Source of the DNA: Capnocytophaga leadbetteri
Lineage (GTDB): Bacteria; Bacteroidota; Bacteroidia; Flavobacteriales; Flavobacteriaceae
Assembly: GCF_003054025.1 (NCBI RefSeq)
Contig: NZ_QBKG01000002.1
Location: 62,001-126,000 of the forward strand
Reading direction: 5' to 3'
DNA length: 64,000 nucleotides
A model generated the notes under the pieces. That model saw only the letters and a program-made list of their open reading frames with translations. It was not told the origin of the DNA and ran no database searches. Shown here in pieces: positions 56,864 to 62,440 of this stretch. The stretch's first letter is position 1. Every line of letters begins with the position of its first letter. The position numbers were made by a program, and so were the translations under genes.

Positions 56864-56961
56864 TCATAATCAAAAAAGCCCTAAAATCCTTAAAATACAA
56901 GTAGTTACAATAAAAAAGCCCAAAAAGGCAGGTAAAACAAAACGTACAAAAAACCACTTTT

Positions 56962-57055
56962 AATTGCCATTTAATTACCGAGTAATTACCCGATAACTAC
57001 CATTTAAATAGAAGTAATTACTATTGGCAGGCATATATACCTCTATAATTGCCAA
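56962..57055. repeat. cluster of short direct/inverted repeats
   Basis: TAATTGCCA at 56962-56970 and 57047-57055, TAATTACC at 56973-56980 and 56984-56991, TAACTACC at 56995-57002, and the inverse GTAATTACTATTGGCA at 57015-57030. Such clusters near a phage end may be transposase-binding sites; inference only. Confidence 0.5.
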
Positions 57056-57069
57056 AAACCTTATAAATA

Positions 57070-57087
57070 CGCCCTTTTTGGGCGTTT
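57070..57087 (+). terminator. plus-strand intrinsic terminator
   Basis: ACGCCC TTTTT GGGCGT followed by TTTTTT, a textbook terminator. No plus-strand gene lies upstream, so it may insulate the phage from host transcription. Confidence 0.7.
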
Positions 57088-57188
57088 TTTTGTGTCTTAT
57101 AGCTACCAAAAAGCCACCTCCAGAGGGCCAGAAAATACCCACAAAAGACACTCACCCAGCAAAGACTAAAAACACCCTATTTTTAGCA

Positions 57189-57224
57189 TTAGGGGTGCAC
57201 TTAGGGGTGCAGTTAGGGGTGCAC
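57189..57224. repeat. three 12-bp tandem repeats
   Basis: TTAGGGGTGCAC, TTAGGGGTGCAG, TTAGGGGTGCAC in a row. Each holds the partial palindrome GTGCAC. Possibly transposase or host-factor binding sites. Confidence 0.8.
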
Positions 57225-57381
57225 TTTTGGGCTATTTTTAGGGTAGTAAAGTAGGTTGTATATTCTTTTTAGTGCAACCAATGGGCTTTTTTGTAGAGTA
57301 AAGGGGGGTGTATTGTAGTGCTTTTTAAAGTTTATTTTTATATAAAATACTGATTTTTAGCATTTTGTATTAAAAACAAGC

Positions 57382-57414
57382 AAAAAGGGTATAGTTTCTC
57401 CTGCACAAATACCC
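57382..57414 (-). terminator. repressor gene terminator
   Basis: Minus-strand GGGTAT (57414-57409) pairs with ATACCC (57392-57387), then TTTTT, 37 bases after the repressor stop. Confidence 0.6.
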
Positions 57415-57450
57415 GCTTTCTACACCTTTTATTCCATTTTCCTCTATATA

Positions 57451-58302
57451 TTATGTATGTGCGGGCAATAGTTGTGTCTCCAAGTTTTTCACCTTGTCCT
57501 GCAATTCCGATAAGTTCACTTCAAGTTCTGCAATTTTCTGATAGTTGGTAACTGGGTCAAGGAATTCAAAAGATATATGAGCTTGACACTCCCATATCTC
57601 TTTTATATCTTCTAACATTACCTTAATATGTTTGTAATCTCTATTATCAGACTTACAATAAAGGAACCCTTTTTCTCTTGCTCTATTTGTTACCCTCTTT
57701 ACGATTACCCCATCGCGTTCTGTGACTACTACACATACCCTATTATCACCCAACCACTCCCAATCTTCAACAAATTTACCTATTACATAGCTACCATCCT
57801 GTAAGGTGGGATACATAGAAAAACCGCTGACCTGAAACATACGATATGTGCCATTTCGCATTTCAGGAAGACTATATGTAGGTAGTTCCTCAATGTAATT
57901 GCTATCATCATAGCCCTCAAGATAGCCCGCTTGGGCTTTTACTGAAACTAATGGAATACGGTCATTATCGTCATCATCTACTACGACTACTTTAGGCATT
58001 AAACTACGCCCCTCTACCTTTATAGGCTCAATAATTTCTACACGAGGTGTCTTTATTACTTCTGTAGCCCCTTCACTTTTAAGCATTTCGCCATTTCCAG
58101 TGAGCAACCATTCTGCATTTAATTTAGGATGGTTTGACAAAATTTTGGCGATAACATCACCTCCTACTTCGCTATAAAGAGCATTTCCTCTAAAATTTGA
58201 AGTGGCAACATTCAATTCGCCGAAAAAATTTTTCCTCTCAATCTGTTTATAATCAACAAATTGAAGTATTCTTTGTTTAATAGGTGCTAAAATTTTGTCC
58301 AT
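57451..58302 (-). CDS. phage repressor, HTH plus S24 peptidase
   Basis: LexA/CI-like repressor that keeps the prophage silent and is expected to self-cleave on DNA damage. From the ATG at 58302 (MDKILAPIKQRILQFV; the longer frame extends across the divergent promoter): N-terminal HTH (~10-80, ending PKLNAEWLLTGNGEML), linker, and S24 domain with Ser in VSGFSMYPTLQDGSYVIG and Lys in GVIVKRV as the cleavage dyad. A C-terminal coiled-coil tail (ELEVNLSELQDKVKNLETQL) may add dimer contacts. 283 residues. Divergent from the small HTH gene, sharing a 62-base operator region. Confidence 0.9.
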   Translation of the reverse strand: MDKILAPIKQRILQFVDYKQIERKNFFGELNVATSNFRGNALYSEVGGDVIAKILSNHPKLNAEWLLTGNGEMLKSEGATEVIKTPRVEIIEPIKVEGRSLMPKVVVVDDDDNDRIPLVSVKAQAGYLEGYDDSNYIEELPTYSLPEMRNGTYRMFQVSGFSMYPTLQDGSYVIGKFVEDWEWLGDNRVCVVVTERDGVIVKRVTNRAREKGFLYCKSDNRDYKHIKVMLEDIKEIWECQAHISFEFLDPVTNYQKIAELEVNLSELQDKVKNLETQLLPAHT

Positions 58303-58364
58303 AATATTTTGTAGCGATAAAATTTTGACATACCTTTGCGCCAGAATTGGAACAATAAGTAACA
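58303..58364. promoter_or_regulatory. early operator region
   Basis: Between repressor and HTH gene. AAAATTTTG-C/A blocks at about 58290-58298 and 58319-58328 resemble direct repeats and could be repressor sites. Also carries the early promoter. Confidence 0.5.
58308..58338 (+). promoter_or_regulatory. phage early promoter
   Basis: TTTG at 58308-58311 and TACCTTTG at 58331-58338, 19 bases apart; the HTH gene starts at 58365. Confidence 0.8.
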
Positions 58365-58571
58365 ATGGACAAAAGTAAGAAAAAAAAGTATAACAAGTAC
58401 AATGCAAGCGTAATAAATGCATTAATTGAGAAACACGGTTTCTCTGGGCGATACATTCGCCAGTGTGTAAGCGGCGAGCGCACAAGCCTCTCAGCCGACA
58501 AAATCAGAAAGGACTATCATAGTATGATTGCCCCTTCTGAAAAGAAAGTAAAAGAATTTTTAAATGATTAA
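58365..58571 (+). CDS. Ner/Cro-like small HTH regulator
   Basis: 68 residues, basic N terminus (MDKSKKKKYNKYN) and an HTH (VINALIEKHGFSGRYIRQCVSGERTSLSADKIRKDY). First gene of the early transcript, divergent from the repressor: the place of ner in Mu or cro in lambda. Likely turns down early or repressor transcription; role inferred from position. Confidence 0.7.
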   Translation: MDKSKKKKYNKYNASVINALIEKHGFSGRYIRQCVSGERTSLSADKIRKDYHSMIAPSEKKVKEFLND

Positions 58572-58574
58572 GCT

Positions 58575-58760
58575 ATGAAAGTAGGAAACAAAGTAAGAGT
58601 ATCACCTTTTATCACCACAGACCCTTACGGTAAAAAAGGAAAAGTAGGCAAATTAACCGATATACGCACCTATGAAGATTATACATTAGGCATTATAACC
58701 TTTGCCGATAACAGTGTAGGTATCTACGACGTAGAATGTTTAGAACCCATAAATGAATAA
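58575..58760 (+). CDS. small early protein, KOW-like start
   Basis: 61 residues, MKVGNKVRVSPFITTDPYGKKGKVGK... with a short beta-barrel look (VGxKVRV...GKVG...), often seen in phage DNA- or RNA-binding small proteins. Three bases after the HTH gene. Function unknown. Confidence 0.55.
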   Translation: MKVGNKVRVSPFITTDPYGKKGKVGKLTDIRTYEDYTLGIITFADNSVGIYDVECLEPINE

Positions 58761-58890
58761 TACAATGATACAAGTAAAAACACAAGTAGTGCTCATAGAA
58801 AGTGAAGAGAAAAAAGAGCGTAAAGTAATAAAAACAGTCCGCTTCTTAGGGTTACTCATATTTAAGAAAGAAAGCTCTTTAGGAATGTAA
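58753..58890 (+). CDS. small early ORF, 45 residues
   Basis: Starts in an 8-base overlap with the previous gene (or at the ATG at 58765). Sequence has VRFLGLLIFKKES, which resembles IRTTFLGIVVKREK in the ORF at 59250-59381. Charged, no known domain; operon position and the recurrence argue that it is real. Confidence 0.45.
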   Translation: MNNTMIQVKTQVVLIESEEKKERKVIKTVRFLGLLIFKKESSLGM

Positions 58891-58939
58891 AAAGGGGCAT
58901 ACTGCACAGCATACCCCAAAGATAGAAACTTAGTAACTA

Positions 58940-59113
58940 TCATTTAGAGGAGAGCCTATTCATTAAAGACTCAAAAGACTCATTAGTATAGATTTTCTCG
59001 CCATTAATGAGAGTAATCATACAAAAGTCACTTCCTCTTCTTACGGTGATAATATGGTGAGTATTCACCACTAAAAATTCACCTTCCAGTGTGGTTGTAA
59101 TTCTAATGAACAT
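58940..59113 (-). CDS. FlbD-like small protein, antisense to the early genes
   Basis: 57 residues from the ATG at 59113 (MFIRITTTLEGEFLVVNTHH... CMITLINGEKIYTNES). The spacing of the strands and the ITLINGEKIYTNES end match the small FlbD-like domain. Runs opposite to the early genes, with TAACTTTG at 59141-59148 as -7 box. In phages, similar FlbD-like proteins occur as lone small genes. Function unknown. Confidence 0.5.
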   Translation of the reverse strand: MFIRITTTLEGEFLVVNTHHIITVRRGSDFCMITLINGEKIYTNESFESLMNRLSSK

Positions 59114-59140
59114 AATTACTAAAATTAAAATTAGACGCCA

Positions 59141-59148
59141 CAAAGTTA
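59141..59148 (-). promoter_or_regulatory. -7 element of the antisense small gene
   Basis: TAACTTTG on the minus strand, 28 bases before its ATG; next to RNA element 1. No -33 match. Confidence 0.4.
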
Positions 59149-59156
59149 GTAATTAT

Positions 59157-59218
59157 TTCCCAAGGTTGGTACGACCAACGGCAAGAAAGTTTGCAGCGGT
59201 TCGCAACCGCCTTGGGAA
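59157..59218 (+). ncRNA. three-way-junction RNA element, copy 1
   Basis: Outer stem TTCCCAAG (59157-59164) with CTTGGGAA (59211-59218); hairpin GTTGGT-ACG-ACCAAC (59165-59179); linker 59180-59195 that can form a weak GCAA/TTGC hairpin; hairpin GCGGTT-CGC-AACCGC (59196-59210). All bases of the two hairpins and outer stem pair. Ends 31 bases before the ATG of the small ORF at 59250. Matches copy 2 in fold with different bases. Confidence 0.75.
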
Positions 59219-59249
59219 GCATTTAAAAACCTTTTAAACCCTATTTAAA

Positions 59250-59381
59250 ATGAAAGTAAAAACCATTTACCTAATTAATGAGGACTTTCTCATTATCGGC
59301 AGAGAGATACGCACAACCTTCTTAGGTATCGTCGTAAAAAGAGAAAAAATAGAGTACCACAAGCCAGTGAAGTACCACTAA
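59250..59381 (+). CDS. small early ORF, 43 residues
   Basis: ATG 31 bases after RNA element 1. EIRTTFLGIVVKREK resembles the VKTVRFLGLLIFKK part of the ORF at 58753-58890. Basic, no known domain. AT-rich leader without a clear Shine-Dalgarno, as common in Bacteroidetes. Confidence 0.45.
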   Translation: MKVKTIYLINEDFLIIGREIRTTFLGIVVKREKIEYHKPVKYH

Positions 59382-59425
59382 TAACACCACATCACGTTTT
59401 TTATATTTTGATTTTATTGTTGTTT

Positions 59426-59482
59426 TCCCCAGTGGTTGGTATGACCAACAGCATTAAGCGCAGCTCGCAACTGCACTGGGGA
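59426..59482 (+). ncRNA. three-way-junction RNA element, copy 2
   Basis: Outer stem TCCCCAGT (59426-59433) with ACTGGGGA (59475-59482); hairpin GTTGGT-ATG-ACCAAC (59435-59449); linker 59450-59459; hairpin GCAGCT-CGC-AACTGC (59460-59474, one C-A mismatch). Same layout as copy 1; in the outer stem three pairs change on both sides (G-C to T-A, A-T to G-C, T-A to C-G), one more in the second hairpin. Ends 28 bases before the transposase ATG. Confidence 0.75.
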
Positions 59483-59510
59483 GCAAGGCAAACGCCAAAA
59501 AAACAAAACT

Positions 59511-61553
59511 ATGTACGCATTCCAAAATAACATATTATCTATCCCCGCACGCCTATTGTATGACGATTGGAAAGTAATGAGCTACAACACCTACAAATCG
59601 TACAGTCAGCGTGGTAAGCTCCAAGTTACCCAAGCAGGCAAAGGGCAAGGTAATGAAGCGTGGGTAGCCTTTGATAGCCTCCCCGTAGTGAAAGGTGTGA
59701 ATACAAAAGAATTTTGCGTGCGTATGCTCGGCAAGCCCGAAGAGGCTCACATCGTTACCAATGTATTAGAAGAGTACATCGTGCCCGACCCCGAAGCTAT
59801 CAACTTCTTTGCTGAGCACCGCAAACCTAACGGCAAATCACTCCCCCTCTCACAACAGCGAGAGAAAGCCACCTCCGCTATGATACTGGGTGCCATCGAA
59901 ATCTTGCTTAAAAGCCGTCCGCTCACTGCCAAAGCCTTTGGTAAACGCAAAACCCAAATATGGCAAAACATCAGCGAAGCAGTGAATGCGCTAAACCCCG
60001 AAAAGTGGAGCTTCTCATTACCTAACAACCCACGAAGCCTACAGCGCAAATATAACCAGTACCTTACCGAGCGTTACGCCACTTTCATTCACAAGGGCGA
60101 AGGCTCCGACAACGCCAAGGTAGTAACCCCTACTATGGAACGCCTATTTATATCCATCTGCTGTATGCCTAATAAACCTTACATTAGTTCGGTATATGAT
60201 ATTTACAAGCAGTTTCTATACGGCGAAATAGAACTTTTTGACCGTGCTACGGGCGAACTCTTTAACGTAGACGATTTTTGCGATGAGAATGGCAACCTGT
60301 TAGAAGTATCTGAAAGCACTGTAAAACTATGGCTTAGCAAAGCCGAAAATCAGCTTATCATAGCCAAAGCCCGCAACGGAGAGTACGATTTTAGCCACAA
60401 GTTGCGCCCACACGTTCACCGCCACGCACCGCTCTACTCAATGAGTAAAATAACCCTTGATGACCGCGATATAATGCACACCAAGCTACCCGACGGCACC
60501 AAAGTAATGGCATACTATGCTTACGATGTGATGAGCACTGCCCTAATAGGTATCGCACACAGCAAAAAGAAAGACACCCAGCTGTTCTTAGACTGCTTCC
60601 GCTCAATGTTTCAGTTCACTACCTCCTATGGCTTGGGCACCCCAATGCAGATAGAAGTAGAACGACACCTAACGGGAGAATTTGCCGACGGGCTACTGAA
60701 AGCTAACAACCTATTTCCGTTTGTACGCTTCTGTAACCCTACAAACTCACAAGAGAAGTATGCCGAGACAATGATACGAGGTAAAAAATACGGTATTGAG
60801 AAAAACAGACACCAAAACGTAGGTCGCCACTATGCCCGCCGTGATAGTAACCGAACCACACAACAAAAGATATTCGATGAGTTCAACAATAATTACAAAG
60901 AAGCCAAAGCCTCTTATGATGATATTGTAGCAATGGAACTCCAAGAGCAAACCCTATACAACAACCAACCCCACCCCGACCAACAACGCTTCCCTGGGAA
61001 GACACGTTTGGAGGTATTTTTAGAGAACGTAAACCCTAATTTGCCACAACTCAACCGAGCCCTTTTAGCCCAATACATAGGCAAATGTACCACTACTACC
61101 ATACGCCGTAGTCAGTATGTAACCGTACAATACCAAAAATACCAACTACCCAACCCACAAGTACTTACCTTATTAGCCCCCAACAACTACCAAGTAGAAG
61201 CCTATTACTTGCCTAATAAGGACGGCATTACCGAAGTGTATCTATACCAAAACGGAGCCTTCCTCTGCACCTGTAGCCCTGTGCCTACCTTCAACCGTGC
61301 TAATGCCGAATGGACTCAGCACGATGAGCAACAATATGCCGAAGCAATGAGTTATGTTACCAAGTTCGACCAAATGGTACGTACCCAATCAGTGCAAAAG
61401 CTCAACCGCTTAGGAAGCCTCACCGCGCCCATACCCACCGCTACCGAAGTAGACTACACACCAGTAGACTACACCGAGACACCCGCACTCAACTATCAAG
61501 AGTACAGCAAAACAAAAGTAGAAACCATAAATAAAGCATTATTAGACTTATGA
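59511..61553 (+). CDS. MuA-type DDE transposase
   Basis: Cuts and joins phage ends in transposition. 680 residues: N-terminal HTH-type DNA-binding region (~10-60, ~180), catalytic RNase-H-like core with VMAYYAYDVMSTALIG (D339), PMQIEVERHLTGEF and FPFVRFCNPTNSQEKYAE (E415), followed by a basic segment (RHQNVGRHYARRD) and C-terminal domain for MuB contact. The exact DDE residues are uncertain; D317/D320 in LDDRD is another candidate for the first. Ends in an ATGA overlap with the MuB gene. Confidence 0.93.
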   Translation: MYAFQNNILSIPARLLYDDWKVMSYNTYKSYSQRGKLQVTQAGKGQGNEAWVAFDSLPVVKGVNTKEFCVRMLGKPEEAHIVTNVLEEYIVPDPEAINFFAEHRKPNGKSLPLSQQREKATSAMILGAIEILLKSRPLTAKAFGKRKTQIWQNISEAVNALNPEKWSFSLPNNPRSLQRKYNQYLTERYATFIHKGEGSDNAKVVTPTMERLFISICCMPNKPYISSVYDIYKQFLYGEIELFDRATGELFNVDDFCDENGNLLEVSESTVKLWLSKAENQLIIAKARNGEYDFSHKLRPHVHRHAPLYSMSKITLDDRDIMHTKLPDGTKVMAYYAYDVMSTALIGIAHSKKKDTQLFLDCFRSMFQFTTSYGLGTPMQIEVERHLTGEFADGLLKANNLFPFVRFCNPTNSQEKYAETMIRGKKYGIEKNRHQNVGRHYARRDSNRTTQQKIFDEFNNNYKEAKASYDDIVAMELQEQTLYNNQPHPDQQRFPGKTRLEVFLENVNPNLPQLNRALLAQYIGKCTTTTIRRSQYVTVQYQKYQLPNPQVLTLLAPNNYQVEAYYLPNKDGITEVYLYQNGAFLCTCSPVPTFNRANAEWTQHDEQQYAEAMSYVTKFDQMVRTQSVQKLNRLGSLTAPIPTATEVDYTPVDYTETPALNYQEYSKTKVETINKALLDL

Positions 61554-62440
61554 TAACCACAGTTTTAAAAGAAAAAATCGTACAAGCAATTGCCGAAAAC
61601 CGACAAAACTACCGCTATGACACCCATCACGCCAAAAGTCTTGGCATCAATGGTGCCCAGTACAACCGTGTAATGAAAGGCGAACGCGATGGCGTGCTAT
61701 CCGATGCCAAATGGATAAGCATCGCCCGCAAACTACAAGTACAACTCCGCGATGAGGCTCCTTGGGTAACCGTAGAGACCGAAACCTTTCAGTACATATA
61801 CAGCCAGCTTACCGCCTGCCAAACACGCTCGCTTTCGGCTATCCTATGTGACCGTGCAGGTATAGGCAAAACACACACCGCCAAAGTATATGTAAGCAAA
61901 AATAAAAACGCCGTATATATCGACTGCTCACAAGTAAAAACCAAACAAAAACTTATACGCAAAATCGCACAAGAGTTTGGCATTACCTATACAGGACGAT
62001 ATGCCGAAGTGTATGAAGATTTGGTTTACTATCTAAAACAGCTTGAAACCCCTTTAGTGATATTAGACGAAGCTGGCGACCTCGAATACCACGCCTTTTT
62101 GGAACTCAAAAGCCTTTGGAATGCCACCGAATATGTTTGCGGTTGGTATATGATGGGGGCCGACGGGTTACAAGCTAAAATCGACCGTAATAAGGGTATC
62201 AAAAAAGTAGGCTATGCCGAAATATTCGACCGCTATGGCTCCAAGTATAGCCGTGTAAGTCCACCCTCTGATAAAGAAGCTATCGAAGCCTTCCTACTCA
62301 GCCAAATAGCACAAGTAAGCCAAGCCAATGGCTCAACTATCAGCCCTGCACAAATGTACGCTAACACCGCAGGAAGCCTCAGAAAAGTACGCACCGAAAT
62401 TGAAAAGCAACGCCTACAACAACTCAATGATGGAAAATAA
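61550..62440 (+). CDS. MuB-type AAA ATPase
   Basis: DNA-binding ATPase that selects target DNA and activates the transposase. N-terminal lambda-like HTH (~10-65), Walker A DRAGIGKT (101-108), Walker B LVILDEAGD (~163-171) and a sensor-like GADG region; the C-terminal part is the family's helical lid. 296 residues. Coupled to the transposase by 4-base overlap and overlaps the next gene by 11 bases. Confidence 0.9.
   Translation: MITTVLKEKIVQAIAENRQNYRYDTHHAKSLGINGAQYNRVMKGERDGVLSDAKWISIARKLQVQLRDEAPWVTVETETFQYIYSQLTACQTRSLSAILCDRAGIGKTHTAKVYVSKNKNAVYIDCSQVKTKQKLIRKIAQEFGITYTGRYAEVYEDLVYYLKQLETPLVILDEAGDLEYHAFLELKSLWNATEYVCGWYMMGADGLQAKIDRNKGIKKVGYAEIFDRYGSKYSRVSPPSDKEAIEAFLLSQIAQVSQANGSTISPAQMYANTAGSLRKVRTEIEKQRLQQLNDGK

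Follow-up and report, generated by a model that had tools for sequence, protein, structure and literature searches.

The closest described counterparts of the RNA elements considered here are RNAs, or parts of RNAs, that resemble tRNAs. The tRNA-like domain of tmRNA has an acceptor stem, a T arm and a D loop without a D stem. In the punctuation model of mitochondrial expression, tRNAs mark the sites at which transcripts are cut. Viruses of plants carry compact tRNA mimics at the 3' end of their RNA genomes, which can be aminoacylated, and the tRNA-like structure of turnip yellow mosaic virus is reportedly also a substrate of RNase P. The same enzyme is said to act on polycistronic mRNA and on the C4 RNA of phage P1. 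According to parts of PMC11143913, the RNA of Escherichia coli RNase P cleaves hairpin substrates that consist of acceptor stem, T stem and T loop, and parts of PMC4919922 list mRNAs and phage RNAs among the non-tRNA substrates of bacterial RNase P and a plant t-element as a substrate of the protein-only enzyme.

The window, a 64,000-nt stretch of contig 2 of the Capnocytophaga leadbetteri genome, contains two related structured elements, which an initial annotation had located in a Mu-like phage, within its early region. Both are present, with refined limits: the core of copy 1 spans 59157-59218 and is followed by GCA up to 59221, and that of copy 2 spans 59425-59483 and is followed by CA up to 59485 (Table 1). 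The start codons announced about 30 bases downstream lie 28 nt past the GCA of copy 1 and 25 nt past the CA of copy 2. Copy 2 begins 43 nt past the stop codon at 59381, and copy 1 is preceded by the antisense gene. The ORF with the S24-peptidase domain is taken as the putative phage repressor, and because such a repressor ORF is accompanied by small early ORFs, MuA and a MuB-like gene, we regard the region as a Mu-like prophage. A Pfam search with the transposase gave no match, and the 43-aa ORF matched nothing in either Pfam or PHROG. Among the genome contigs (genome_contigs), the only named relative found of the transposase locus is Capnocytophaga sputigena NCTC11653 (98% identity). The 16-mer GGTTGGTAYGACCAAC is absent elsewhere in the 2.64-Mb genome, one mismatch being allowed.

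Table 1. Positions of the structured elements and of neighbouring features in the window.
Feature	Position	Strand	Basis
ORF with S24-peptidase domain	57451..58485	-	PF00717
FlbD-like small gene, antisense, upstream of copy 1	58940..59143	-	PF06289, E 1e-6
Inverted repeat (59112-59122/59146-59156) flanking TTAGACGCCACAAA (59131-59144), abutting copy 1	59112..59156		sequence; relatives
Copy 1, four-way-junction (cloverleaf-shaped) element with 3' GCA	59157..59221	+	sequence, fold
Copy 1, outer stem	59157-59164/59211-59218		
Copy 1, hairpin 1	59165-59179		
Copy 1, hairpin 2	59181-59194		
Copy 1, hairpin 3	59196-59210		
Small ORF (43 aa) downstream of copy 1	59250..59381	+	ORF translation
Copy 2, layout as copy 1, upstream of MuA	59425..59485	+	sequence, fold
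Copy 2, outer stem	59425-59433/59475-59483		
Copy 2, hairpin 1	59435-59449		
Copy 2, hairpin 2 (weak)	59451-59459		
Copy 2, hairpin 3 (7-nt loop)	59460-59474		
MuA-like transposase downstream of copy 2	59511..61553	+	phrog_310 transposase, E 1.1e-58
MuB-like ATPase	61550..62440	+	AAA_22; phrog_296 DNA transposition protein

The minimum-energy fold is a four-way junction, and not the three-way junction described initially, in all four copies folded, i.e. copies 1 and 2, copy 1 of the related locus L051 and the diverged copy of L004 (C. sputigena). Each has a closing stem of 8-9 bp, a hairpin 1 with a 3-nt loop, a hairpin 2 and a hairpin 3 that abuts the 3' strand of the closing stem; what had been taken for a short linker is the second hairpin, which reads GCAAgaaagtTTGC in copy 1 and is reduced to 2 bp in copy 2. 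The fold energy of copy 1 (59155-59222) is better than that of 200/200 shuffles (z -4.45) and that of copy 2 (59422-59486) better than 196/200 (z -2.65); the L051 copy likewise beats 200/200 (z -4.13), and the L004 copy, the weakest of the four, 191/200 (z -1.89). Dinucleotide shuffling, with 1000 shuffles each, produced a closing stem of at least 7 bp 16 times for copy 1, 9 times for copy 2 and 20 times for the L004 copy. Energy alone cannot pick the strand, since the minus strand of each window copy folds well too (z -4.14 and -3.45).

The pairing is maintained where the sequence changes. Hairpin 1, GTTGGT-AYG-ACCAAC, is identical in the two window copies except at the Y, as annotated, and becomes CAGT-ACG-ACTG in L004 with the pairing kept; a pair of hairpin 2 changes from A-T to G-C in L051; and pairs of the closing stem change on both sides between the copies. 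Three such outer-stem changes had been listed (GC/TA, AT/GC, TA/CG), which is the number obtained by counting from the junction outwards; counting from the outside gives two. Homologous phages keep the outer stem, upstream of MuA in L004 and L050 and upstream of a small ORF in L051, and no loss of pairing was seen among them. With these relatives and the PHROG 310 match of the transposase, the initial description is borne out in that the element is structured, covaries and precedes the transposase within the early part of a Mu-like phage. L004 is devoid of the copy-1 cassette and has just the MuA-proximal copy, which is found again in G412 (114/114 nt). A pattern search of viral_contigs with GGTTGGTANGACCAAC returned 44 hairpin-1 loci, among which a window-type outer stem, with a 7-8-nt match, occurs only in L033 (the window's own phage) and L035 (= L051); L047 has a 5-nt match. 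No family of Rfam 15 matched anywhere in the window at the gathering threshold, in line with the earlier failure to assign a family, and a relaxed search of 59000-59600 gave two weak and unrelated minus-strand matches, to microRNA and enterobacterial sRNA models. ARAGORN, applied to the window and to 12 relatives, called neither tRNA nor tmRNA genes.

Other Mu-like phages of the Bacteroidota have another RNA in this region ahead of MuA, a tRNA-like structure (TLS) of 40 nt, found in more distant MuA loci (G263, 42% identity), in Elizabethkingia phage TCUEAP3 and in IMG/VR phages. Its parts are a 5-bp acceptor stem, an 11-nt linker in which a GG resembles that of the D loop, and a T arm whose loop reads TTCRAG, in the order TCC, linker with GGCA, T arm (e.g. 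GGTTCGAGTCC), GGA, and then GCA or ACA. The twelve TLS collected are 40 nt each and align without gaps. In alignment A2, assembled from elements chosen by eye, 8/11 pairs change on both sides and the score is reached by 0/500 shuffles; RNAalifold, unaided, predicts the same stems. Nine of the 11 pairs covary in alignment A3, in A4 (138 distinct rows, from the best 150 of 209 matches with 12 duplicates uncounted) and in the held-out alignment A6 (107 distinct rows). Scores amount to 0.644 in A4 (0.063-0.106 for slid pairings) and 0.568 in A6 (0.033-0.116 slid), both from rows fitted to the stems of the model, which biases them. Nine covarying pairs were also reached by 56/500 (A4) and 47/500 (A6) shuffles, while the score and the number of double-change cells were reached by none.

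Conservation of the TLS extends to the contacts of the tRNA elbow. Columns 15 and 31, equated with tRNA positions 18 and 55, are GU in 130 and AG in 8 of the 138 A4 rows, the latter from six loci, and are never mixed; columns 16/32 (19 and 56) are G-C and columns 30/34 (54 and 58) T-A in every A4 row, A58 of the T loop thus being present in 138/138. The same G-C and T-A pairs occur in all 68 held-out elements, A58 in 68/68, and columns 15/31 are GU in 65 and AG in 3, in a set consisting of those 68 of the 77 distinct 40-mers outside A4 that scored at least 13/15 in a filter which itself gives credit for pairing, for TTC/TGC, for A58 and for the linker G, and so favours columns 16/32 and positions 54/58, and in part columns 15/31. 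Outside the reach of this filter, columns 12/19 are Watson-Crick in 134/138 (A4) and 66/68 (held-out), columns 20/36 are paired, GU counted, in 137/138 and 68/68, and an unpaired C74 is found in 135/138 (101/101 plus 34/37 hand-extended local rows) and 66/68. A purine directly follows the stem in 133/138 A4 rows and 63/68 held-out elements, and position 75 is C in just 5/138 and 6/68. The TLS is a tRNA elbow with part of the tRNA 3' end, lacking the D stem, the anticodon arm and a full CCA.

A search of eight TLS-rich loci with Rfam 15 gave no gathering match save for an 81-nt tmRNA-like relative in L243, and a relaxed search with the TLS gave just a 7.8-bit T-arm match to tmRNA. The relative (L243 12636-12716) lies between ORFs, scores 53.6 bits with RF00023 and is apparently a TLS with one extra stem. 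An element like the TLS was not described in the literature searched, which was mostly open-access and hence is weak evidence of absence.

Covariance model R1 was applied to the window and to 83 MuA loci, with 16 loci of one 80-locus set omitted (duplicates, and L118 with 21 nt upstream). Strong TLS matches (E 4.4e-7 or better) occur in 13/83 MuA loci, some of which carry little upstream DNA, and all are on the transposase strand; 12 of the 16 strong matches are the model's own training sequences. L055 has a weak match (E 0.016), and neither window copy was found. Matches occur in 5/397 genomes of the family, where that in L154 (E 0.0019) sits in a coding region, judged by eye, and was rejected as chance, and in 6/395 genomes of the phylum, where L155 holds a TLS and the other five genomes hold tRNA-Asn-like fragments; a tRNA-Asn-like 3' half is present in each of the 7/8 phylum-wide matches that were discarded. 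In L157 (1500-1551) and L162 (1501-1551), from Prevotella-like genomes, such 3' halves lie directly behind a whole tRNA-Asn gene, and ARAGORN called the neighbouring tRNA-Asn-type gene in 4/7 loci and left the fragments uncalled. In the window's own genus, 7/20 genomes have TLS, 10 copies altogether. A 38-nt TLS pattern hit at least 120 stretches of viral_contigs and its reversal none. In the 120 loci among the matches listed, model R2 gave 331 matches at E 0.05 (209 in 80 loci and 122 in 40), one copy being common to L182 and L223, which overlap on one contig. Up to 12 copies are packed into one 14.5-kb locus; 48 of 113 loci (two alignments) have at least two, all on one strand in 48/48. Downstream genes encode MuA and, by eye from translations, helicase-like, YopX-like and ParB-like proteins, so the TLS is not tied to transposition, and a special link of the slot to MuA is not supported.

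The TLS is an intergenic element. In eight annotated stretches, picked for holding a BLAST match (Streptomyces phages Endor2 and phiHau3, Riemerella phage CRP19, Mycobacterium phages Damien, Phantastic and Papyrus, Gordonia phage ObLaDi and Microbacterium phage Pavlo), 28/29 TLS matches overlap no annotated gene, as against 5.4 expected from the gap fraction, a count that includes two weak matches (E 0.086, 0.095) and omits a partial one in phiAsp2 (L309 4001-4021, 20.1 bits), itself in a gap. One of the 28 sits past the last gene, and the single overlap concerns the annotated start of Papyrus gp78. In ObLaDi the orientation of the TLS tracks gene direction on both strands. Among 104 full-length A4 rows, duplicates included, a stop codon lies 6-9 nt upstream in 46 (5/104 in a mirror control) and in 85 a possible start, defined as an ATG, GTG or TTG that begins 40 open codons, lies 10-60 nt downstream. 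The 45 nt 3' of the TLS fold better than the shuffle mean in 51/63 cases in GC-rich phages and in 18/37 in AT-rich ones. Hairpins of variable sequence begin 2-4 nt past the TLS, before the next start, in 10/14 listed examples from GC-rich loci (e.g. L182, L184, L196, L203). By eye, a hairpin GAC-stem-GGAAAGA (or GGAGAGA)-stem, often followed by a T run, recurs between TLS slot and MuA in L053, L073, L077, L116 and L122, and beside a tRNA-like element in L062 and L064.

How, then, do the window copies relate to the TLS? It is rather unlikely that they are unrelated, i.e. a Capnocytophaga-specific structured RNA that came to lie in the same slot by chance or selection. Such a separate origin would agree with the result of R2, which, run on 56900-62000 with filters off, missed both copies (its top score, 6.2 bits, lay outside them), and with the hairpin-3 loops, which in a 4-bp/7-nt reading are TTCGCAA and CTCGCAA, with C at position 58 and no TTCRAG with A58; the L004 loop AGCAAAA is likewise without A58. 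The 40-nt TLS, moreover, contains nothing that corresponds to hairpin 1, the most conserved part of the window element, and the window-type outer match is rare among the hairpin-1 loci. Against this stand the slot and the ends. As in the TLS, no unpaired nucleotide separates hairpin 3 from the outer 3' strand, which it abuts as the T arm does; a purine-C follows the closing stem (...GGGAA-GCA in copy 1, and ...GGGGA-GCA in copy 2 if the terminal U-G pair is open); and several TLS have the similar ends TTCCC...GGGA[R]GCA. Both copies are intergenic, on the coding strand and within 10-60 nt of the next start codon; the distance of copy 2 from the preceding stop codon departs from the TLS spacing, which fewer than half of the TLS rows themselves show. 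Hairpin 1 contains a GG (TTGGTA), a candidate for a D-loop-like contact, in a set of window-type sequences too small for covariation. The motif TTAGACaCCACAAA precedes copy 1 by 13 nt and the TCC of the TLS by 11-14 nt in L053, L073, L075 and L082; the TLS trails it by about 45-60 nt in L074 and L262, and none was seen after it in L110, L116 and L122. Finally, forms that are longer and cloverleaf-like but retain the T loop were seen by eye upstream of MuA in L064, L067, L068 and L095, of which those of L064, L067 and L095 fold no better than shuffles (z -1.17, -0.17 and -1.29).

From these sequence comparisons, the window copies are probably homologous to the TLS, as expanded or degenerate occupants of its slot; they likely descend from it or functionally replace it, with extra arms gained and the canonical T loop lost. 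That they work like a TLS is more likely than that they are one. The (a)TTAGACaCCACAAA motif (TTAGCACCACAAA in L055) is itself enclosed by an inverted repeat whose arms differ between phages (59112-59156 in the window; L053, L055, L073, L074, L075, L082, L110, L116, L122, L262), and on the minus strand it resembles a TAnnTTTG promoter box of an antisense small gene. In Porphyromonas Mu-like phages a near-complete tRNA-like sequence with, by eye, an oversized anticodon loop lies directly before the transposase, with no tRNA annotated (L067 1660-1735, L068 about 1665-1734).

Starting from what computation yields, namely the folds, the TLS covariation with its elbow contacts, the recurrence outside genes on the strand of the neighbours and the stop and start spacing, we tentatively propose by analogy that each window copy acts in cis, as an intercistronic RNA within the early phage mRNA and in the slot of the TLS, and that the TLS may punctuate the operon through tRNA-recognising enzymes, of which RNase P would be the likeliest. 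These enzymes would bind the acceptor-like stem, the GG linker docked on the T arm and the purine-C. Cleavage on the 5' side of the acceptor stem would end the upstream message a few nucleotides past its own stop codon. The downstream message would then open with a compact fold, 10-60 nt ahead of its start codon, which would guard the 5' end. RNase Z possibly acts alongside RNase P, and the outcome would be a tRNA punctuation of the phage operon. Among the functions suggested in the initial annotation, RNA processing fits best with the occupant of the same slot in other phages. Several observations weigh against this proposal. The acceptor and T stems of the TLS stack to 11 bp, compared with the 12 bp that they form in tRNA; RNase P prefers an RCCA end, which the TLS has only in part, because position 75 is seldom C; and the strong TLS matches are confined to a minority of the MuA loci. 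For the window, the blindness of R2 to both copies, the missing A58 and the variable distance between motif and TLS are further points against it.

Alternatively, the TLS and the window-type elements could stay uncut and act as folded insulators or translation modules, which, from positions just outside terminating and initiating ribosomes, prevent read-through or re-initiation or protect the mRNA at its 5' end. The spacing to stop and start codons would suit ribosome footprints, and the well-folded 45 nt past the TLS in GC-rich phages, with the helix 2-4 nt behind it, would match such a role, but the conservation of the tRNA elbow contacts and of the purine-C74 is left unexplained, and we consider this unlikely. 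The acceptor/T stack, the elbow and the purine-C74 are among the features that tRNA-processing enzymes read; since the TLS keeps them and RNase P cuts minimal substrates, we favour mRNA punctuation by RNase P over a passive insulator. It is quite improbable that the window elements act at the DNA level, hairpin 1 serving the repressor or MuA as a palindrome, either operator or transposition enhancer, and the remaining pairings being incidental: the inverted repeat is indeed the same in both copies and is situated where the Mu-like phage has its early control region, but the outer stem and hairpin 2 change on both sides of their pairs, and hairpin 1 is still paired in its diverged L004 form. 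It is barely credible that the TLS represent ordinary tRNA genes, whether decayed or miscalled, given their 40-nt length, covarying stems and elbow, many copies per phage and lack of an anticodon arm, even though T arm and acceptor resemble tRNA, the fragments beside tRNA-Asn genes (Prevotella-like) score 28-39 bits with R2 and thereby overlap the weaker phage matches, and ARAGORN calls a tRNA-Arg over one TLS in L226 (Endor2) and a tRNA-Pyl over one in L243, just those two calls in L182, L226, L243 and L306, where R2 matches are far more numerous. The tRNA-Arg annotation at L292 8379-8461 (Streptomyces phage Endor2) and the tRNA-Pyl call at L243 9354-9438 overlap TLS and are probably miscalls.

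If mRNA punctuation applies, phage operons would gain an mRNA-processing code like that of mitochondria. The wider form of the proposal is slightly more doubtful: a 40-nt tRNA-elbow RNA, not described before, might serve phages of at least two bacterial phyla as punctuation of their polycistronic mRNAs; it would recruit host tRNA-processing enzymes, segment operons and set mRNA ends, and the cloverleaf copies of the window would be an expanded branch of it. The hosts of the TLS include named phages of Streptomyces, Mycobacterium, Gordonia, Microbacterium, Riemerella and Elizabethkingia as well as prophages of Capnocytophaga. The TLS would also account for some of the tRNA calls in phage annotation, and it represents a 40-nt module, a minimal tRNA mimic with covarying elbow contacts.

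Compared with the described systems, the TLS has the acceptor/T arm architecture in common with the tRNA-like domain of tmRNA, and the L243 relative even scores as RF00023; it differs in its length of 40 nt, in having neither an mRNA part nor a full CCA, in its intercistronic position and in its many repeats in some phages. With the tRNA mimics of plant viruses it shares compactness and occurrence in viral RNA, but it is internal and devoid of a full CCA and an anticodon arm. Precedents for non-tRNA substrates of RNase P include phage-induced RNAs, mRNAs and the lactose operon (parts of PMC4919922), whereas repeated minimal tRNA elbows between phage genes do not figure in the parts of PMC4919922 and PMC11143913 considered. 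A further analogy is offered by the t-elements of plant mitochondria and by mitochondrial punctuation, in which tRNA-shaped signals in transcripts are cut by tRNA-processing enzymes, the t-element being a substrate of protein-only RNase P (parts of PMC4919922); these signals are organellar, whereas the TLS, a putative target of such enzymes, belongs to viruses of bacteria.
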